Shown: positions 6,321-58,300 of the stretch, in pieces
Layout of the letters: every line of letters starts with the position of its first letter
Position numbering within the stretch: position 1 is the first letter of the stretch
NCBI GenBank assembly: GCA_026125895.1
Contig: JAHCKG010000012.1
Span: 57,081-121,080 of the forward strand
From: Pseudolabrys sp.
GTDB taxonomy: Bacteria; Pseudomonadota; Alphaproteobacteria; Rhizobiales; Xanthobacteraceae
Length of the DNA: 64,000 nucleotides
Direction of reading: 5' to 3'
The notes under the pieces: generated by a model
Told to the model about the DNA's origin: nothing
The model's database searches: none
What the model saw: the letters and a program-made list of their open reading frames with translations, nothing else
Made by a program: the position numbers and the translations under genes

Positions 6321-6935
6321 ATGAACTGGCAGTTATTTTCGGCCTTCTTCGTCATTACAACGATCCTCATCGCCGTCCCGGGCCCGGTGGTCACGCTGGT
6401 GATCGCGACCGGGGCGCAGCGCGGTATTCGTCCGGCGCTGGCGACCGTGGCCGGCACCATGGCCGGCACCGCCGTGCTGCTCGCCGGCATCGGTTTCGGT
6501 CTCGACTGGCTGCTCAAGATGTCGTCGGCCTTGTTCGAGGTGATGCGCTGGGCCGGCGCCGCCTATCTGTTCTGGCTCGGCATCCAGGCCTGGCGCCACG
6601 CCGGCGATCCGGTGCCGAAGCTCGAGCCGCGCGGCCATGTTTTCGCGACGCGCGGCTTCCTCGTCGCCGTGACCAACCCGAAGACCATCGCCTTCTTCAC
6701 GGCGTTCCTGCCGCAGTTCATCGACCCGACGCTGCCGGTCGGCTTCCAGATCCTGGTGATGTCGCTGACGTCGCTGCTGATCGCGCTGGTGCTGGACTCG
6801 TGCTGGGCGGTCGCCGCCGGTCTCGGCCGCGCCTGGTTCCTCAAGCCGCACCACAACAAGCTGCTCGGCCGCGTCTCCGGTCTGGTGCTGATGGGCGGCG
6901 GCGTATGGCTGAGCCTGACAAGAAGGCCGGGCTAG
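6321..6935 (+). CDS. LysE family exporter (translocator)
   Basis: A 204-residue inner-membrane protein with six predicted helices. It has the LysE/RhtB signature VPGPVVTLVIATGAQRG near residues 19-35 and the NPKTIAFFTAFLPQFID block near 115-131. The family exports amino acids or small metabolites; the substrate cannot be read from the sequence. It follows gyrA by 82 bases but is probably independent. A double-hairpin repeat lies directly after the stop codon. Confidence 0.9.
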   Translation: MNWQLFSAFFVITTILIAVPGPVVTLVIATGAQRGIRPALATVAGTMAGTAVLLAGIGFGLDWLLKMSSALFEVMRWAGAAYLFWLGIQAWRHAGDPVPKLEPRGHVFATRGFLVAVTNPKTIAFFTAFLPQFIDPTLPVGFQILVMSLTSLLIALVLDSCWAVAAGLGRAWFLKPHHNKLLGRVSGLVLMGGGVWLSLTRRPG

Positions 6936-6942
6936 CAACAAA

Positions 6943-7018
6943 CTCCGCTCATTCCCGCGCAAGCGGGAATCCGGCGCTTTAACACTGGGTCCCCGCTTTC
7001 GCGGGGACGAGCGGGGAG
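6943..7018 (-). repeat. Double-hairpin palindromic repeat, family A, copy 1
   Basis: About 76 bases holding two hairpins: GATTCCCGC paired with GCGGGAAT, and GTCCCCGC paired with GCGGGGAC. The reverse complement aligns along its whole length with the copy at 58226-58300, with the same outer ends (CTCCGCTC and GAGCGGAG) and a variable centre of about 15 bases. It lies between the convergent LysE and ankyrin genes and may also act as a bidirectional terminator. The copy inside queA (9759-9851) belongs to the same family. Confidence 0.85.
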
Positions 7019-7019
7019 T

Positions 7020-7700
7020 CTAGCGCGCGCCGGCCTTCTCCAGGATCGCGACCATCTCGGCATAGCCGCGTCCTTTCGCCAGGGTCAGCGGCGTCGCGCC
7101 GCTGCGCTCGGCTATGTTGACGTTGGCGCCGGCCTCGACCAGCGCCTTGAGCGTCGCGGTGTGACGCGTGCCGCCATTGCCGAGCACGATCGACTCGATC
7201 AGCGCGGTCCAGCCGAGATTGTTGACGTGGTCGAGCGGCGCCCTGGCGGCGATCAGCATGCGCACCACCTCGTCGTGGCCGAGATGCGCGGCGGCGATCA
7301 GCGCCGTGCCGTGATAGGGGCTGGTGATGTTGGTCGCCTTGCAGCCGCCGTCCAACGACAGCTTGAGCATGGCGACATCGTCGGCGACCGCGGCGATGGT
7401 GACGATGTCATAGGCCTGCGCGTCGAGCGCATTGGCGTCGGCGCCGAGGCGGATGAGGGCGCGGGCGGCGTCAGCCTTCTTCAGGTGGACGGCGACGTGC
7501 AGCGGCGTGCGGCCGCCGCCATCGCGCGCCTCCAGCGCCGCCCCGTCCTTGACCAGTCTGTCGATGGCCGCGGCGTCGCCTGCGGCGGCCGCGGCATGCA
7601 GGCCGCGGTAGGCGGCAATGTCGGCCGGGCCGGGCGCGATCTGGGCGAAGGCGGCGGACGCCGAGAGCAGGACGGCGGCGGCGACGGAGCGGAACAGCAT
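7020..7700 (-). CDS. Secreted ankyrin-repeat protein
   Basis: A 226-residue protein with a signal peptide (MLFRSVAAAVLLSASAAFAQ) followed by about five ankyrin repeats. Typical repeat cores are DGGGRTPLHVAVHLKKADAA, YHGTALIAAAHLGHDEVVRM and SGATPLTLAKGRGYAEMVAI. Ankyrin repeats are protein-binding scaffolds, and the signal peptide points to the periplasm or outside of the cell. The stop codon abuts the family A repeat, which leaves only one base between repeat and gene. No partner can be named. Confidence 0.88.
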   Translation of the reverse strand: MLFRSVAAAVLLSASAAFAQIAPGPADIAAYRGLHAAAAAGDAAAIDRLVKDGAALEARDGGGRTPLHVAVHLKKADAARALIRLGADANALDAQAYDIVTIAAVADDVAMLKLSLDGGCKATNITSPYHGTALIAAAHLGHDEVVRMLIAARAPLDHVNNLGWTALIESIVLGNGGTRHTATLKALVEAGANVNIAERSGATPLTLAKGRGYAEMVAILEKAGAR

Positions 7701-9058: not shown

Positions 9059-9514
9059 ATGGCCAAGCCGGAAGACACGCTGACGCTGGAAACCACCAAG
9101 GGCAACGTCGTGATCGAGATGCGTCCCGATCTCGCGCCCGGCCACGTCGCGCGCATCAAGGAACTGGTCAAGGAAGGCTTCTATGACGGCATCGTCTTTC
9201 ACCGCGTGATCGACGGCTTCATGGCGCAGACCGGTTGCCCGCAGGGCACCGGCATGGGCGGCTCGGGCAAGAAGCTGAAGGCCGAGTTCAACAAGGAGCC
9301 GCATGTGCGCGGCACGGTGTCGATGGCGCGCGCCTCGAACCCGGATTCCGGCGACAGCCAGTTCTTCATCGTGTTCGACGACGCCACCTTCCTCGACAAC
9401 CAGTACACGGTCTGGGGCAAGGTCATCGAGGGCATGGAGAACGTCGACAAGATCAAGCGCGGCGAGCCCGTGCAGAACCCCGACAAGATCGTCAAGGCGA
9501 CGATGGGGGCATAA
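9059..9514 (+). CDS. Cytoplasmic cyclophilin-type peptidyl-prolyl isomerase
   Basis: A 151-residue single-domain cyclophilin without a signal peptide, so it is cytoplasmic. It has the complete active-site pattern: FHRVIDGFMAQTG, the GMGGSG loop, SMARASNPDSGDSQFFI and VWGKVIEGMENVD. A strong AAAGGAGA ribosome-binding site lies before the ATG. With the upstream secreted paralogue it forms a tandem pair, one enzyme for each compartment. A large inverted repeat begins 26 bases after its stop codon. Confidence 0.96.
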   Translation: MAKPEDTLTLETTKGNVVIEMRPDLAPGHVARIKELVKEGFYDGIVFHRVIDGFMAQTGCPQGTGMGGSGKKLKAEFNKEPHVRGTVSMARASNPDSGDSQFFIVFDDATFLDNQYTVWGKVIEGMENVDKIKRGEPVQNPDKIVKATMGA

Positions 9515-9539
9515 GGCCTCCACGAAGCGTCAATTTCTG

Positions 9540-9628
9540 CGTCATGGCCGGGCTTGTCCCGGCCATCCACGTCTTTAATGCTGACGGCAAGGAAGACGTG
9601 GATGCCCGGCACAAGGCCGGGCATGACG
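9540..9628. repeat. Inverted repeat with two internally paired arms, family B
   Basis: Two 36-base arms (9540-9575 and 9593-9628) are near-perfect inverted repeats, separated by 17 bases. Each arm also folds on itself: the left as GGCCGGG-CTTGT-CCCGGCC, the right as GCCCGGC-ACAAG-GCCGGGC. The arms differ at only four positions, and these form two compensatory pairs within the arm hairpins. The element ends 10 bases before the queA start, next to its AAGGA ribosome-binding site. A single-arm relative lies at 38629-38665. Confidence 0.88.
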
Positions 9629-9638
9629 AAGGATAGCC

Positions 9639-10859
9639 ATGCGCACCGACCTCTTCGACTTCGACCTGCCGGCCGAGCGCATTGCGCTACGGCCCGCTCA
9701 TCCGCGCGAGAGCGCGCGGCTCATGGTGGTGCGGCCGGGCGGGGCGCGGCCGCAAGCACCGCTCGTCCCCGCGCAGGCGGGGACCCAGAAGGCGACAGGC
9801 GAGGTTGGCGCGCGGGGATCCTGGACCCCCGCCTTCGCGGGGGGGAGCGGAGAACAGGGGCCAGTTCCCGAATGGGAAGACCGCACGGTTGCCAACCTGC
9901 CGGACCTGCTCGAGCCGGGCGACTGCCTGGTGGTCAACGACAGCAAGGTCATCGCCGCGCGGCTCAAGGGCCGGCGTATCGGGCGCGGGGAGGCGGAACC
10001 CTCGATCGAGGCGACCCTGCACAAGCGCATCGACGGCTCGACCTGGCGGGCCTTTATCCTCGGCGCCAAGAAGGTCCAGGTCGGCGATATCCTGCGCTTC
10101 GGCACCGAGGGACGGGTCTGTTTTCTCGGTCAGCTCGATGCTGAAGTTTTACATAAAGATGAGGGTGGCGATGTAACCCTCTCATTTTCCTTCACAGGTC
10201 CGGTTCTCGATCAAGCGATCGAGGAGCGGGGCGAGATGCCCCTGCCGCCCTACATCGCCTCGAAGCGGCCGACCGACGACCAGGACAAGACCGACTACCA
10301 GACCGTGTTCGCCCACGAAGAAGGGTCCGTGGCGGCTCCGACCGCCGGGCTGCACTTCACCCCGGCGCTGCTGGAGCGGCTCAAGGCCCGCGGCGTCGCC
10401 CTGCACAAGGTCACCCTGCATGTCGGCGCCGGCACCTTCCTGCCGGTGAAGGCGGACGACACCGAAGGCCACAAGATGCACGCCGAGTTCGGCATCCTGA
10501 CCGCGGAGACGGCGGAGGCGCTCAACGCGGCCCGCGCCAAGGGCGGCCGCATCGTCGCCGTCGGCTCGACCGCCATGCGCACGCTGGAGACGGCCGCGGG
10601 CGACGATGGCAGGCTCAAGGAGTTCGCCGGCGACACCGCGATCTTCATCACGCCCGGCTACCGCTTCAAGGCGGTGGACCTGATGATGACCAACTTCCAC
10701 CTGCCGCGCTCGACCTTGTTCATGCTGGTGTCGGCCTTTTCCGGGCTGGCGACCATGCAGCGGGCCTACCGCCATGCCATCGACACCGGCTACCGGTTTT
10801 ACTCCTACGGCGATGCGTGTTTGCTGTTTCCTCAGAGTCATTCCGGGACAGCCCGTTAG
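9639..10859 (+). CDS. queA: tRNA preQ1(34) S-adenosylmethionine ribosyltransferase-isomerase, with repeat-derived insert
   Basis: QueA moves the ribosyl group of S-adenosylmethionine to 7-aminomethyl-7-deazaguanine in tRNA, giving epoxyqueuosine. Family blocks are present: [23 protein letters not shown] at the N-terminus, [56 protein letters not shown] and [18 protein letters not shown]. The protein has 406 residues against about 350-360. The excess comes from an in-frame insert of about 40 residues near 41-74, encoded by a family A palindrome, and from a C-terminal SHSGTAR tail encoded by a second palindrome. Every catalytic block is intact, so a working enzyme is likely. tgt follows. Confidence 0.96.
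9759..9851 (+). repeat. Family A palindromic element inserted in frame in queA
   Basis: Inverted arms 9759-9788 (CCGCTCGTCCCCGCGCAG and onward) and 9821-9851 (ending GGGGGGAGCGGA) match the arms of the intergenic copy at 58226-58300. Translated in the queA frame the element gives [12 protein letters not shown], a variable centre, then [10 protein letters not shown]. The intergenic copy in the corresponding frame gives PLVPAKAGTQKA then WIPAFAGMSG. The insertion keeps the queA frame open, and the surrounding QueA sequence is uninterrupted. Confidence 0.85.
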
Positions 10860-10938
10860 GGCTGGACCCGGAATCCATAACCCCTGTAAGTGATTATGGA
10901 TTCCGGGCTCGCTCGTTTCACTCGCGCCCCGGAATGAC
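10837..10938. repeat. Palindromic element overlapping the queA stop codon, family C
   Basis: Left arm 10837-10880 and right arm 10894-10938 share outer sequences in inverted orientation: GTCATTCCGGG at the ends and CCCGGAATCCATAA inside. The arm centres differ: the left has a hairpin CAGCCC-GTTA-GGGCTG, the right an unrelated CGAG-rich stretch. The queA stop (10857-10859) lies in the left arm hairpin. The tgt start codon is 10 bases beyond the right arm. Confidence 0.85.
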
Positions 10939-10948
10939 AGAGAGATAA

Positions 10949-12085
10949 ATGTCCGAACCCTTCTCCTTCACTCTGCGCAAGACCGACGGCATGGCCCGCC
11001 GCGGCGAGATCGTGACGCCGCATGGCCCGATCGCGACGCCAGCCTTCATGCCGGTCGGCACCGCGGCGACGGTAAAGGGCCTGCATCCGGAGGCTGTCGC
11101 CGACACCGGCGCGCAGATCCTGCTCGGCAACACCTATCACCTGATGCTGCGGCCCGGCGCCGAGCGCATCGCCGCGCTCGGCGGGCTGCACAGGTTCATG
11201 AACTGGGACAAGCCGATCCTCACCGACAGCGGCGGCTTCCAGGTCATGTCGCTTGCCACCTTGCGGAAGCTGACGGAGCAGGGCGTCACCTTCCGCTCGC
11301 ATATCGACGGCACCAAATACGAGCTGACGCCGGAGCGTTCGATCGAAATCCAGGCGCTGCTCGGCACCGACATCACCATGCAACTCGATGAGTGCCTCAA
11401 GCTGCCGGCCTCGCGCGAGGAGATCGAGCGCGCTATGCGGCTGTCGCTGCGGTGGGCGGAGCGCTCCAAGCGCGCCTTCGAGGCCCGCGCCCGCGAGGGC
11501 TACGCGTTATTCGGCATCGTGCAGGGCGGCGACGACATTCCGCTGCGGCAGGCCAGCGCCCGCGCGCTCACCGAGATCGGATTCCACGGCTACGCCGTGG
11601 GCGGCCTCGCGGTCGGCGAGCCGCAGGAGGTCATGCTCAAGGTGGTCGAGGAAACGACGCCGGTACTGCCCGCCGATGCGCCGCGCTACCTGATGGGGGT
11701 CGGCACGCCGCACGACATCCTTGAGGCGGTGGCGCGCGGCATCGACATGTTCGACTGCGTCATGCCGACCCGCAACGGCCGCCACGGCATGGCCTTCACC
11801 CGCTTCGGCCAGCTCAATCTCTCGAACGCGCGGCACGCCGACGATCCGCGGCCGCTCGACGAGGAAAGCCCGCATCCGGCGGCGCGGACCTATTCGCGCG
11901 CCTACCTGCATCACCTGACCAAGGCCAATGAAATGCTCGGCCAGGTGCTGCTCTCGACCGTCAACATCGCCTACTACCAGGCGCTGACCGCCGGCATGCG
12001 CGCCGCGATCGAGGAGGGGCGGTTCGAGGACTTCCGCATGGCGACGATCGAGGGCTGGGCCAGGGGCGACATCCCGGCCCGATAG
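10949..12085 (+). CDS. tgt: Queuine tRNA-ribosyltransferase (tRNA-guanine transglycosylase), zinc cysteines missing
   Basis: Tgt exchanges guanine-34 of GUN tRNAs for preQ1, the step before QueA. The substrate block [11 protein letters not shown] with the catalytic Asp93, the GGLAVGE region and the [17 protein letters not shown] block with the nucleophilic Asp are all intact. Length 378 is normal. The C-x-C-x2-C zinc ligands found in E. coli and Zymomonas Tgt before YSRAYL are replaced by Ser307, His309 and Ala312, so the structural zinc site appears lost or remodelled. The following helix, [17 protein letters not shown], is conserved. It probably shares a transcript with queA. Confidence 0.96.
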
Positions 12086-12089
12086 GCCG

Positions 12090-13031
12090 TCACTTCCGTT
12101 TCGCCAGCGGTTTGGCGAGTTCGCGCGCGCAATCGATGAAAAGCTCGGCGGCCGGATTCAAGGTCCGGTTTGTGGGCGTGACGATGCCGTTGGCCACCGG
12201 AGCGATCGGCAGGCGAACCGGCAACGCCTTGATCTCCGAATGCTGCGGCGACATTTTCAGGGCGTCGTCGTGGAAGAAAGTGAGAAACCGCCCCGTCGCC
12301 AGAAGACTCATGCGCACTTCGGACGACATCGTCACCACGGTCGTGTGAGGGTAAGCGAGGCCGCTCTTGCGGAACGCTTCGGCATAGATCGGCCCCAGCG
12401 CGTGTTCCGGGGGCGGCAGCACCCACAACTCGTTCGCCAATTCGGCAAGCTCGATCTTTCGCCGCCGGACCAGCGGGTTCTGCGCGCCCGCAACCACGAC
12501 ATAGGACGTGTCGTACAGCGTTTCGAAGGCGAAGAGGTCCTCGGGGAAGAGCTCGAGCCGCGGCACGATCAGCAGGTCGAGTTTGCGTTCGGTCAGTTCG
12601 CGATGCAGCGTTTCGACCTGGGCCGACACGACACGGAACACCATGCGCGGATGATGCCGCAACAGGCGGTTGATGATTTCCGGAATGAAGCCGGCCGCCA
12701 GCGGCGCGATGCTGCCGACGCGCACTTCGCCTGCGCTGGGATCGGCCAGAAACTCGATCCTTTTGACGGCCTGATAGAGTTCGTCGAACGCCGCTTCGCC
12801 GCCGTCGAGGAGGGCCCGGCCATAGTCGGTCGGCTCGATGCCGTGCGGGCTGCGGTCGAGCAGGCGAACGCCGATCGCCGCCTCCAGTTCGCCGATCGAC
12901 CGCGATACGGCGGGCTGCGTCGTATTGAGCAGCGTCGCGGCCCTTCGCATGCTGCCGGCCTGCACCACGGTCATCAGGATGTGCAGGTCCTGTAGCTTCA
13001 GGCGGCGGCCGATGCGATCGCTGAGCTGCAT
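12090..13031 (-). CDS. LysR family transcriptional regulator
   Basis: A 313-residue LysR regulator with the N-terminal winged helix-turn-helix LQDLHILMTVVQAGSMRRAATLLNTTQPAVSRSIGELEAAIGVRLLDR and a C-terminal effector-binding domain. The ATG at 13031 is preferred over an upstream one at 13067 because AGGA lies at the right distance. It is transcribed away from the amidohydrolase gene across 235 bases containing an AT-rich stretch (13050-13080), the usual arrangement for LysR control of a divergent target. The ligand is unknown; an aromatic acid or lactone would suit the neighbours. Confidence 0.93.
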   Translation of the reverse strand: MQLSDRIGRRLKLQDLHILMTVVQAGSMRRAATLLNTTQPAVSRSIGELEAAIGVRLLDRSPHGIEPTDYGRALLDGGEAAFDELYQAVKRIEFLADPSAGEVRVGSIAPLAAGFIPEIINRLLRHHPRMVFRVVSAQVETLHRELTERKLDLLIVPRLELFPEDLFAFETLYDTSYVVVAGAQNPLVRRRKIELAELANELWVLPPPEHALGPIYAEAFRKSGLAYPHTTVVTMSSEVRMSLLATGRFLTFFHDDALKMSPQHSEIKALPVRLPIAPVANGIVTPTNRTLNPAAELFIDCARELAKPLAKRK

Positions 13032-13266
13032 CACGATCCTATTGCGAAAATGGTATAGGTATATCACAATTTAGCATTGTCTTGGCATAACCGCATCCGC
13101 TATTTGTCGCCCTCGGCCGGCGGACATCCGCATGGTCCGTTTGGCGGTTTGGGACGTTGCGGACAGCCGTTGCGCGCGCCTACCGTGATTGCCGGCTGCT
13201 GCCGGCATCGTTTGTCCCACGAGAAACGGTGCGATAGCGAAGCACCCGAGCTTGAGGAATTGCCGT

Positions 13267-14121
13267 ATGAGCGCCGATCCGGAGTTTCTCGCCACGCGGC
13301 GCAAGCCGAACTTCAAGCTGCCGGCGGGCGCCATCGACGCGCATTGCCACGTCTTCGGGCCCGGCGCGGTATTCCCCTATGCGCCGAACCGGCGCTACAC
13401 GCCGAACGATGCGCCGAAAGAAATGCTGCGCGCGCTGCACGATCACCTCGGCGTGTCGCGCGCCGTCATCGTGCAGGCGAGCTGTCACGGCACCGACAAC
13501 CGCGCCATGATGGATTGCCTGGCGTGGGACCCGAATCGCTATCGCGGCGTCGCCATCGTCGATGACACCTTCACCGATGCCGACTACGACAGACTGCATG
13601 CCGGCGGCGTGCGCGGCGTGCGCTTCAACTTCATCAAGCATCTCGGCGGCACGCCCGACATGGACGTGTTCTACAAGGTGATCGACCGCATCAAGGGCCG
13701 CGGCTGGCACGTCGTGCTGCATCTCGGCGGACCGGACATCATTCCGAACATGGAGACGATCAAAAAGCTGCCGCTGACCTTCGTCATCGATCACATGGGC
13801 CGCGTGCCGGCCAAGGACGGTCTCGACCAGCCGCCGTTCAAGGCGCTGATGGAACTCGCCAAGCTCGACAACTGCTGGATCAAGGTCTGCGGCGCCGAGC
13901 GCATCGACTTCCCGCCTTACGACAAGGCGGTGCCGATCGCGCGGCGCATTCTCGAGACCATTCCCGACAAGGTGATGTGGGGCACCGACTTCCCGCATCC
14001 CAACGCCAGCCACGAAGCCGACGAGGCCGACCTTGTCGATCTGGTTCCGCAATTCGCGCCGGAGACGGATTTGCAGCGCCGCGTGCTTATTGATAACCCG
14101 GCGCGGCTCTACGATTTCTGA
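13267..14121 (+). CDS. Amidohydrolase family protein, 2-pyrone-4,6-dicarboxylate lactonase-like
   Basis: A 284-residue TIM-barrel hydrolase. It has the metal-binding HxH pattern in GAIDAHCHVFGP near residue 20, VIQASCHGTDN, GVRGVRFNF, VIDHMGR near 175-180, WIKVCGAERID and the late WGTDFPHPNA with the catalytic Asp. This pattern is that of the LigI branch (2-pyrone-4,6-dicarboxylate hydrolysis in protocatechuate 4,5-cleavage) and its relatives. GAGGAA upstream of the ATG at 13267 decides the start. Next to a LysR regulator and a solute-binding protein it probably serves breakdown of an imported carboxylate. Confidence 0.87.
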   Translation: MSADPEFLATRRKPNFKLPAGAIDAHCHVFGPGAVFPYAPNRRYTPNDAPKEMLRALHDHLGVSRAVIVQASCHGTDNRAMMDCLAWDPNRYRGVAIVDDTFTDADYDRLHAGGVRGVRFNFIKHLGGTPDMDVFYKVIDRIKGRGWHVVLHLGGPDIIPNMETIKKLPLTFVIDHMGRVPAKDGLDQPPFKALMELAKLDNCWIKVCGAERIDFPPYDKAVPIARRILETIPDKVMWGTDFPHPNASHEADEADLVDLVPQFAPETDLQRRVLIDNPARLYDF

Positions 14122-54470: not shown

Positions 54471-54490
54471 GTTGACCAGGGTAAGAACCC

Positions 54491-54608
54491 GTCGTCCCCG
54501 CGAAGGCGGGGACCCATACGCCGCAGCATTGGCGATACATGCGAGCGATGCCGTTCGGAGTGCCACACACCGTCAGGGGATATGGGTCCCCGCCTTCGCG
54601 GGGACGAC
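54491..54608. repeat. Perfect 28-base inverted repeat, family A-related
   Basis: Arms 54491-54518 and 54581-54608 are exact reverse complements (outer GTCGTCCCCGCGAAGG, inner ACCCATA) with a 62-base spacer. Each arm also contains a hairpin GTCCCCGC-GAAG-GCGGGGAC, the same stem as family A. The element lies between the IalB terminator and the convergent hspQ gene, whose stop is five bases from its end. Confidence 0.88.
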
Positions 54609-54612
54609 AACG

Positions 54613-54945
54613 TCAATTCAACAGATCGTCGAGCGGCTTGTAGTTGCCGTTCTCGTCGAACTCGAACACTTCCTCGACCTGCGGGTGCCGGATCGGCTTG
54701 CCGGAGGTGTCAGGCAGAAGGTTCTGCTCGGAGACGTAGGCGACGTATTCGGTTTCTTCGTTCTCGGCGAACAGGTGATAGAACGGCTGATCCTTGCGCG
54801 GCCGCACGTCGGCCGGGATCGCCTCCCACCATTCCTCGGTGTTGCTGAACTCCGGATCGATATCGAAGATCACGCCACGGAACGAGAACAGGCGGTGCTT
54901 GACCACCTGGCCGATCTTGTATTTCGCAATGTGCATCTTCGCCAT
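54613..54945 (-). CDS. hspQ: Heat shock protein HspQ
   Basis: A 110-residue protein of the HspQ/YccV family, with AKYKIGQVVKHRLFSFRGVIFDIDPEFSNTEEWW and DQPFYHLFAENEETEYVAYVSEQNLLPDTSG. In E. coli HspQ binds hemimethylated DNA and acts as a specificity factor and substrate of Lon protease. Length is normal (about 105). No heat-shock promoter could be identified with confidence. Confidence 0.95.
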   Translation of the reverse strand: MAKMHIAKYKIGQVVKHRLFSFRGVIFDIDPEFSNTEEWWEAIPADVRPRKDQPFYHLFAENEETEYVAYVSEQNLLPDTSGKPIRHPQVEEVFEFDENGNYKPLDDLLN

Positions 54946-58225: not shown

Positions 58226-58300
58226 CTCCGCTCGTCCCCGCGAAGGCGGGGACCCAGAAAGCCAAGAACTGGATTCCCGCTTTCGCGGGAATGAGCGGAG
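58226..58300 (+). repeat. Double-hairpin palindromic repeat, family A, copy 2
   Basis: 75 bases: CTCCGCTC, hairpin GTCCCCGC-GAAG-GCGGGGAC, a short centre, hairpin GATTCCCGC-TTTC-GCGGGAAT, then GAGCGGAG. It is nearly identical in layout to the copy at 6943-7018 (other strand) and shares its first arm and reading frame with the queA insert. It begins one base past the CoA transferase stop codon. Confidence 0.87.

Follow-up and report, generated by a model that had tools for sequence, protein, structure and literature searches.

Palindromic repeats of the CGTC type are found mostly in Alphaproteobacteria, where these REPs have 8–9-bp stems, 4–5-nt loops and CCA tails and are mostly arranged as head-to-head (HH) dimers (Di Nocera 2013, PMC3733652). 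CGTC-1 repeats have a terminal CGTC tag, replaced in many by TGTC or CCTC, and A-T is almost invariable at the first two stem positions. The excerpts of that survey on which we draw link no transposase to CGTC REPs, so how these repeats move is an open question. The same excerpts report intragenic copies in several species, class RPE-4 and RPE-6 of R. conorii as CGTC-4 and CGTC-1, and describe different REPs at about one site in recB of two Xanthomonas species, which is the nearest parallel to the case presented here (PMC3733652). Inverted REP doublets are also the units of the REPIN/RAYT (TnpA-REP) system, as described in excerpts of PMC3116915 and PMC8266576. In the mitochondrial coding palindromes of Nematomorpha, according to part of PMC6649704, palindrome and protein coding are kept together, but there the arms encode conserved protein regions, whereas the element studied here is a loop insert.

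Rickettsia palindromic elements (RPE-1, RPE-4 and RPE-6) are palindromic repeats lying in frame within genes. They occur in another host group, in other genes and presumably with other sequence, and in our case a single genus contains full inserts, leftovers and empty sites that can be traced from genome to genome. Abergel in 2006 reportedly examined how such an element is excised from the guanylate kinase of Rickettsia.

We analysed a window of 64,000 nucleotides from Pseudolabrys sp. that contains queA (9639..10859, + strand; Pfam PF02547; PDB relatives 1yy3, 1vky and 1wdi), encoding an S-adenosylmethionine:tRNA ribosyltransferase-isomerase of 406 aa including an insert. The original prediction, that a palindromic repeat lies in frame inside this gene, was borne out. 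After RLMVVRPGG, positions 9759-9852 form an inverted hairpin pair, or REP dimer, in frame with queA. It consists of a left arm (9759..9788, + strand; stem 9765-9784 of 8 bp with loop GCAG, and CCAG after the stem), a spacer of 32 nt (9789..9820, + strand) and an inverted right arm (9821..9852, + strand), and both arms are translated in frame. The predicted RNA fold of 9757-9852 has an energy of −62.2 kcal/mol (z −4.6), and no Rfam family matched the queA region at 9400-11000. QueA had been described as unusually long with an intact core, and this holds: relatives without the insert have about 350–374 aa, and the Queuosine_synth domain (PF02547) is found with 392 bits in two stretches, the best spanning residues 78-396. 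By these matches the enzyme is still recognisable around the insert, as are genes that carry an in-frame RPE. Other palindromic stretches flank the gene. One lies immediately 5′ of queA at 9537-9631, with arms of 39 nt that are 87% complementary, and another lies at its 3′ end at about 10838-10945 (arms 10867-10907). The final residues (SHSGTAR) and the stop seem to lie at the edge of this 3′ stretch, and the end of the gene in genome G032 is alike. The QueA tails of G002, G010 and G013 differ (SFRDGA, SFRDSA) and may be repeat-derived.

The insert belongs to a short hairpin-forming repeat family that is scattered through the genome of this soil bacterium, a MAG of 4.52 Mb in 50 contigs that is 82% complete and 5% contaminated. 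A strict dimer pattern gave 59 matches, and the reversed pattern, used as a control, gave 0. BLAST with the queA insert found at least 46 places (40 of 156 first-look candidates were scored), and the CCCC-type arm alone matched 154 times with at most one mismatch allowed. The intergenic element to which the queA arms had been likened (58226..58300, unstranded; RNA fold z −9.5) has the same design and is of the same family; the reading frames proposed for both copies were correct, with 58227-58299 reading TPLVPAKAGTQKAKNWIPAFAGMSG. The window holds a further dimer of this family (6934..7026 with flanks, unstranded), one arm of which has CCG, and a related dimer of another subfamily with CGTC before its stems and a longer spacer (54477..54623 with flanks, unstranded).

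We surveyed 55 dimers of this genome, taken from stretches around the repeats and from the window; the survey is incomplete, with 9 of the 59 strict dimers unlisted. The search pattern fixes five of the stem pairs, the loop length and the CCA tail, so the 4-nt loop and CCA tail of all 110 arms are no test of the family. The three outer stem pairs, which were free in the pattern, are all Watson-Crick in 100 of 110 arms, so that all 8 pairs (five of them set by the pattern) are formed in these arms, as in the 8-bp stem of CGTC-1. The tag before the stem is GCTC in 103 of the 110, which departs from CGTC-1, CGTC itself being found in the subfamily at 54477-54623. The first two stem bases are AT in 50 arms, GT in 34 and AC in 21, in contrast with the almost invariable A-T start. 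All 59 pattern matches are HH dimers with the tags outside; the search gave no separate figures for single arms or TT dimers. Given a similar build (8-bp stem, an alphaproteobacterial host and some intragenic copies, and in the copies retrieved by the pattern a 4-nt loop, CCA tail and HH arrangement) with a GCTC tag in 103 and an A-T start in 50 of 110 arms, we call the family CGTC-1-like and not a member of CGTC-1, as far as that family is defined in the excerpts of PMC3733652. Spacer lengths were 2 mod 3 in 27 of the 49 listed dimers other than queA, and we dropped this genome-wide bias as a signal, lengths 29 and 32 making up 15 of the 27.

We found no target-site duplication that was convincing in the compared flanks of six queA inserts; the best case, G011, was equalled in 91 of 2,000 shuffles. 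Y1 transposase (PF01797), the sole transposase family searched, was absent from the window's own MAG (82% complete) and from G010, a carrier of the insert assembled as a single contig of 5.6 Mb, and was present in 2 of 26 other genomes of the genus searched. In this, and in having no GTAG tag, the family differs from the REPIN/RAYT system with its cognate RAYT transposase.

To place the insert in its lineage, we sought QueA in the own genome and 79 others, with a match in 78 of the 80, and in 80 named loci besides. The genus (Pseudolabrys type) is represented by 43 genomes, of which QueA was judged in 40, with G007, G012 and G036 left out. Thirty linkers were read (28 as DNA, 2 as protein), and ten more were judged from the coordinates of the match pieces, an uninserted linker being one with a gap of at most 6 bases, or an overlap, between two QueA pieces. 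A REP dimer is present in 6 of the 40 genomes (the own genome, G028, G011, G010, G039 and G016), another insert in two (G032 and G038) and neither in 32. The 40 residues are thus not a feature common to all relatives and unlike the repeats, which would have spoken against the original prediction. Outside the genus no REP insert in queA was seen in the 100 of 110 loci parsed, a set in which genomes and named loci overlap; of the 37 genomes outside it, and leaving the named loci aside, only G070 was inspected at the level of single bases. Its QueA linker (L299, G070:C1337), from another family of the order, contains an 18-nt tandem repeat coding PHAKSG-like units. Carrier genomes hold more REP dimers (median 29.5) than the 34 genomes without the insert (median 6.5; Mann-Whitney p 1.9e-4, in a test that ignores shared descent and uneven completeness).

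The host genome is a MAG of the limited completeness and contamination given above, and the insert might be an artefact of assembly or binning, or a chance look-alike. We consider this very improbable, since five other assemblies, one of them a single contig, have corresponding inserts and the dimer pattern matched 59 times against 0 in the control.

Its position in the protein was examined in an AlphaFold2 model built from 24 sequences (the window's QueA and 23 named loci; mean pLDDT 71, pTM 0.72). Residues 39-73 have pLDDT below 50 and lie between strands 27-31 and 79-83, so that the original prediction's question of where these residues fall in the structure has an answer: the insert is modelled as a disordered loop connecting two strands. 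In solved QueA sequences (1yy3, 1vky and 1wdi) 6 to 8 residues stand between the aligned parts at this place, which indicates that the insertion site is a short connection able to lengthen.

We searched the genome for further copies within open reading frames, as had been suggested, and found in-frame dimers in two more genes. For three of the 55 own dimers the surrounding gene encodes domains that could be recognised; these genes are queA and those of a P-type ATPase (L164) and a 2-oxoacid dehydrogenase E2 (L161). The ATPase has E1-E2_ATPase and hydrolase domains, with the dimer in the hydrolase domain; the E2 protein has lipoyl, E3-binding and catalytic domains, with the dimer in a linker. 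The ATPase gene has two REP dimers, at own C23:221577 and about 222275, one of them internal and the other at the C-terminal end. Open frames across four other own dimers (L142, L141, L148 and L004) were not counted; they have no Pfam match and are antisense-like, though they pass the coding filter. Among 56 dimers of four other genomes (28 in G010, 22 in G004, 5 in G026 and 1 in G033, with four dimers in the ATPase and E2 genes left out), none lies in a gene interior that passes the coding filter.

The ATPase was read in 28 of the 43 genus genomes, in G030 and G002 from partial sequence and coordinates; those of G001, G015 and G018 are more distant, at 45–52% identity. A full dimer is present in 6 of the 28 (the own genome, G037, G022, G027, G010 and G036). 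In G026, G028, G033 and G004 the end of the right arm alone remains, for example GGGGGTGAGCGGAGAG in G026, and these pieces in four sister genomes look like remnants left after deletion. G029 and G032 have possible traces, and the remaining 16 have a plain linker or no clear trace. In E2, a dimer between the lipoyl and E3-binding domains was found in 18 of 34 genomes read (of the 43 in the genus), the copy in G012 being a decayed form, and was absent in 16. As judged by sequence, then, the same spot in queA, and spots in two other genes, have inserts in some species only.

We next considered whether queA received one insertion or several. A tree was built from the QueA core with the linker removed (36 rows), and on it the distribution of carriers requires 5 changes, of which well-supported branches force 4; on a tree of QueA core and Tgt (28 rows) it requires 5, all forced. 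Carriers as one clade were rejected (p-AU 3e-4 for the QueA core and 8e-54 with Tgt), and the own genome and G028 as sister carriers were not (p-AU 0.08). Rejection of a single clade means that losses or transfers are needed and nothing more; it does not separate losses from gains. As a reference for spacer likeness we used 400 randomly paired genomic spacers, whose z scores had a 99th percentile of 4.57 and a maximum of 5.52. The likeness of the own spacer to those of G028 (z 5.7) and G011 (z 5.9) exceeds this maximum, and its likeness to that of G010 is at about the 99th percentile (z 4.0–4.6). The spacers of G028 and G010 are not close (z 2.2–2.3), and those of G039 and G016 have no clear kinship to any. 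At the insert edges, the own genome and G028 differ from the other four carriers by a few codons.

These data bear on two histories. A single old insertion early in the genus may have been followed by many losses, through deletion or recombination with uninserted alleles, a course to which we give somewhat less than an even chance. The spacer likeness of the own genome to G028 and G011, and at the margin to G010, fits common origin; the lack of any other domain-bearing gene interior among the 55 own and 56 other dimers is expected if insertions are old and few; and partial deletion does happen, as seen in the ATPase. However, many losses would be required, the carriers do not form a single clade, several non-carriers retain linkers of outgroup length and look, the spacers of G028 and G010 are not close to each other, and those of G039 and G016 have no clear kinship to any. 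Alternatively, the linker may be a preferred or permissive site at which REP dimers were gained about four times with little or no loss, and the likelihood of this we put just short of one half. The scattered carriers with their forced changes, the edges differing by a few codons between the own genome and G028 and the other four, the dissimilar arm types (V-T, A-A and T-V) and the richness of carrier genomes in dimer copies all agree with repeated gain. So do the absence of kinship among ATPase spacers (0 of 10 pairs at z ≥3) and the presence of unrelated DNA in the same linker, namely tRNA-Val pieces in G032 and G038 and the 18-nt tandem repeat of G070. Against repeated gain, distant carriers have similar spacers, and recombination may distort the gene trees.

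The inserts of G032 and G038 contain CACCCTTCACACGGGYGGGGTC. A reading of these as repeats was replaced after ARAGORN identified the one further match in each genome as tRNA-Val(CAC). In G038 the linker matches the genome's own tRNA gene at 39 of 40 bases, over a stretch that covers the 3′ half of the D-arm, the anticodon arm and the variable loop. In G032 it matches at 32 of 34 bases, and before a gap ten more bases match the start of the tRNA stretch. Both pieces translate in frame as TLHTGGV (L181 G032:C14 and L182 G038:C300), and on the QueA tree the two genomes do not sit next to each other. We know of no report of tRNA pieces inside the queA linker, and a literature search, narrow enough that a report may exist, found none. 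In the own genome, on contig C26 at about 12416-14016 (L179), a second copy of the 3′ half of tRNA-Val(CAC) lies some 1.6 kb away from the complete gene, an arrangement that resembles the edges of an integrated element. The queA linker might be a recurrent capture site for unrelated hairpin-forming DNA, taking up REP dimers in several lineages and, in two others, the D-arm to variable loop of tRNA-Val(CAC), with the palindromes then maintained within the gene by matched changes in the two strands of the stem; we regard this as a tentative and rather doubtful proposal. If true, it would suggest that such inserts enter genes through template switching at hairpins, a copying error of a general kind, and not through a REP-specific transposase.

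Spacer length follows the gene in which the dimer sits: the six queA inserts and five of five ATPase inserts have spacers of 2 mod 3, and 13 of 13 E2 inserts have spacers of 0 mod 3 (this count omits five E2 genomes and the ATPase of G036, whose spacer has 2 bases). The left arm encodes the peptide P-x-X-P-A-x-A-G-X, in which residues 3 and 9 covary because their codons pair as DNA, the pairs seen being V-T, A-A, T-V and I-I. Pairing within the left-arm stems was compared with permutations, which ignore shared descent. For E2, 120 of 128 pairs are Watson-Crick in 16 of the 18 inserts (G012 and G022 were unfit for the arm expression and left out), a level reached in 2 of 20,000 permutations. 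For queA, 47 of 48 pairs are Watson-Crick, reached in 302 of 20,000. The ATPase has 48 of 48, but 3,397 of 20,000 permutations are as good, which gives no evidence of upkeep there. Eight of the 16 E2 left arms have one broken pair each, so that upkeep of the palindrome is incomplete. On the sequences compared, the pairing pattern could have arisen by coupled change in steps, by exchange with other copies or by correction templated on the hairpin.

Such pairing, kept better than permutation expectation in E2 and queA, together with a stable predicted RNA fold, might also mean that the hairpin is selected, either regulating queA mRNA or adding a useful peptide. We think this improbable, given that the REP insert is missing from 34 of 40 judged genomes of the genus, is disordered in the model and is eroded in the ATPase, and that no Rfam family was matched in the queA region.

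Our preferred reading, which is very probably correct, is that QueA tolerates extra residues in the connection between two of its N-terminal strands and that a REP dimer in head-to-head arrangement, from an abundant CGTC-1-like family, was copied into that connection. Comparison of the sequences shows that the insert belongs to the family, that it is read in frame in six genomes and missing from most relatives, that the enzyme is otherwise recognisable, that two further genes hold inserts of this kind, and that sister genomes retain apparent deletion leftovers of the ATPase insert. After copying into queA, the insert would have been a nearly neutral passenger, presumably retained since its length is divisible by three, the used frame has no stop and it lies in a loop. 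In-frame deletions would later erode it. With less certainty, coupled changes may keep up the DNA palindrome inside the gene, whether by correction templated on the hairpin, by exchange with other copies or because the hairpin is under selection.

The kind of insert is already known, CGTC-type REPs and Rickettsia palindromic elements both having been reported inside genes, and the original prediction's comparison with the latter, as elements that enter genes in frame, is supported. The prediction also knew of no case named for this group. That stands for Pseudolabrys and for queA, for neither of which we found a report of intragenic palindromic repeats in the open-access literature searched (without the supplementary gene list of PMC3733652); it does not stand more broadly, intragenic CGTC-type REPs, mostly of Alphaproteobacteria, being reported in the excerpts of that survey. 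New, as far as we found, are the group, the genes, the lineage-resolved history, the residue pairs that record the palindrome and the tRNA pieces at the queA site.

We conclude that the in-frame REP dimer in queA is real and well supported, and that the comparative material for it is unusually good. The tRNA pieces and the covarying residue pairs are most worth following, the former offering a test of a transposase-free route. Through inserts of this kind conserved enzymes gain new peptide segments, and the same inserts can lead to misannotation or misalignment. Three gene loops with full inserts, leftovers and empty sites in one genus provide a natural series for dating the gain, loss and upkeep of coding palindromes.
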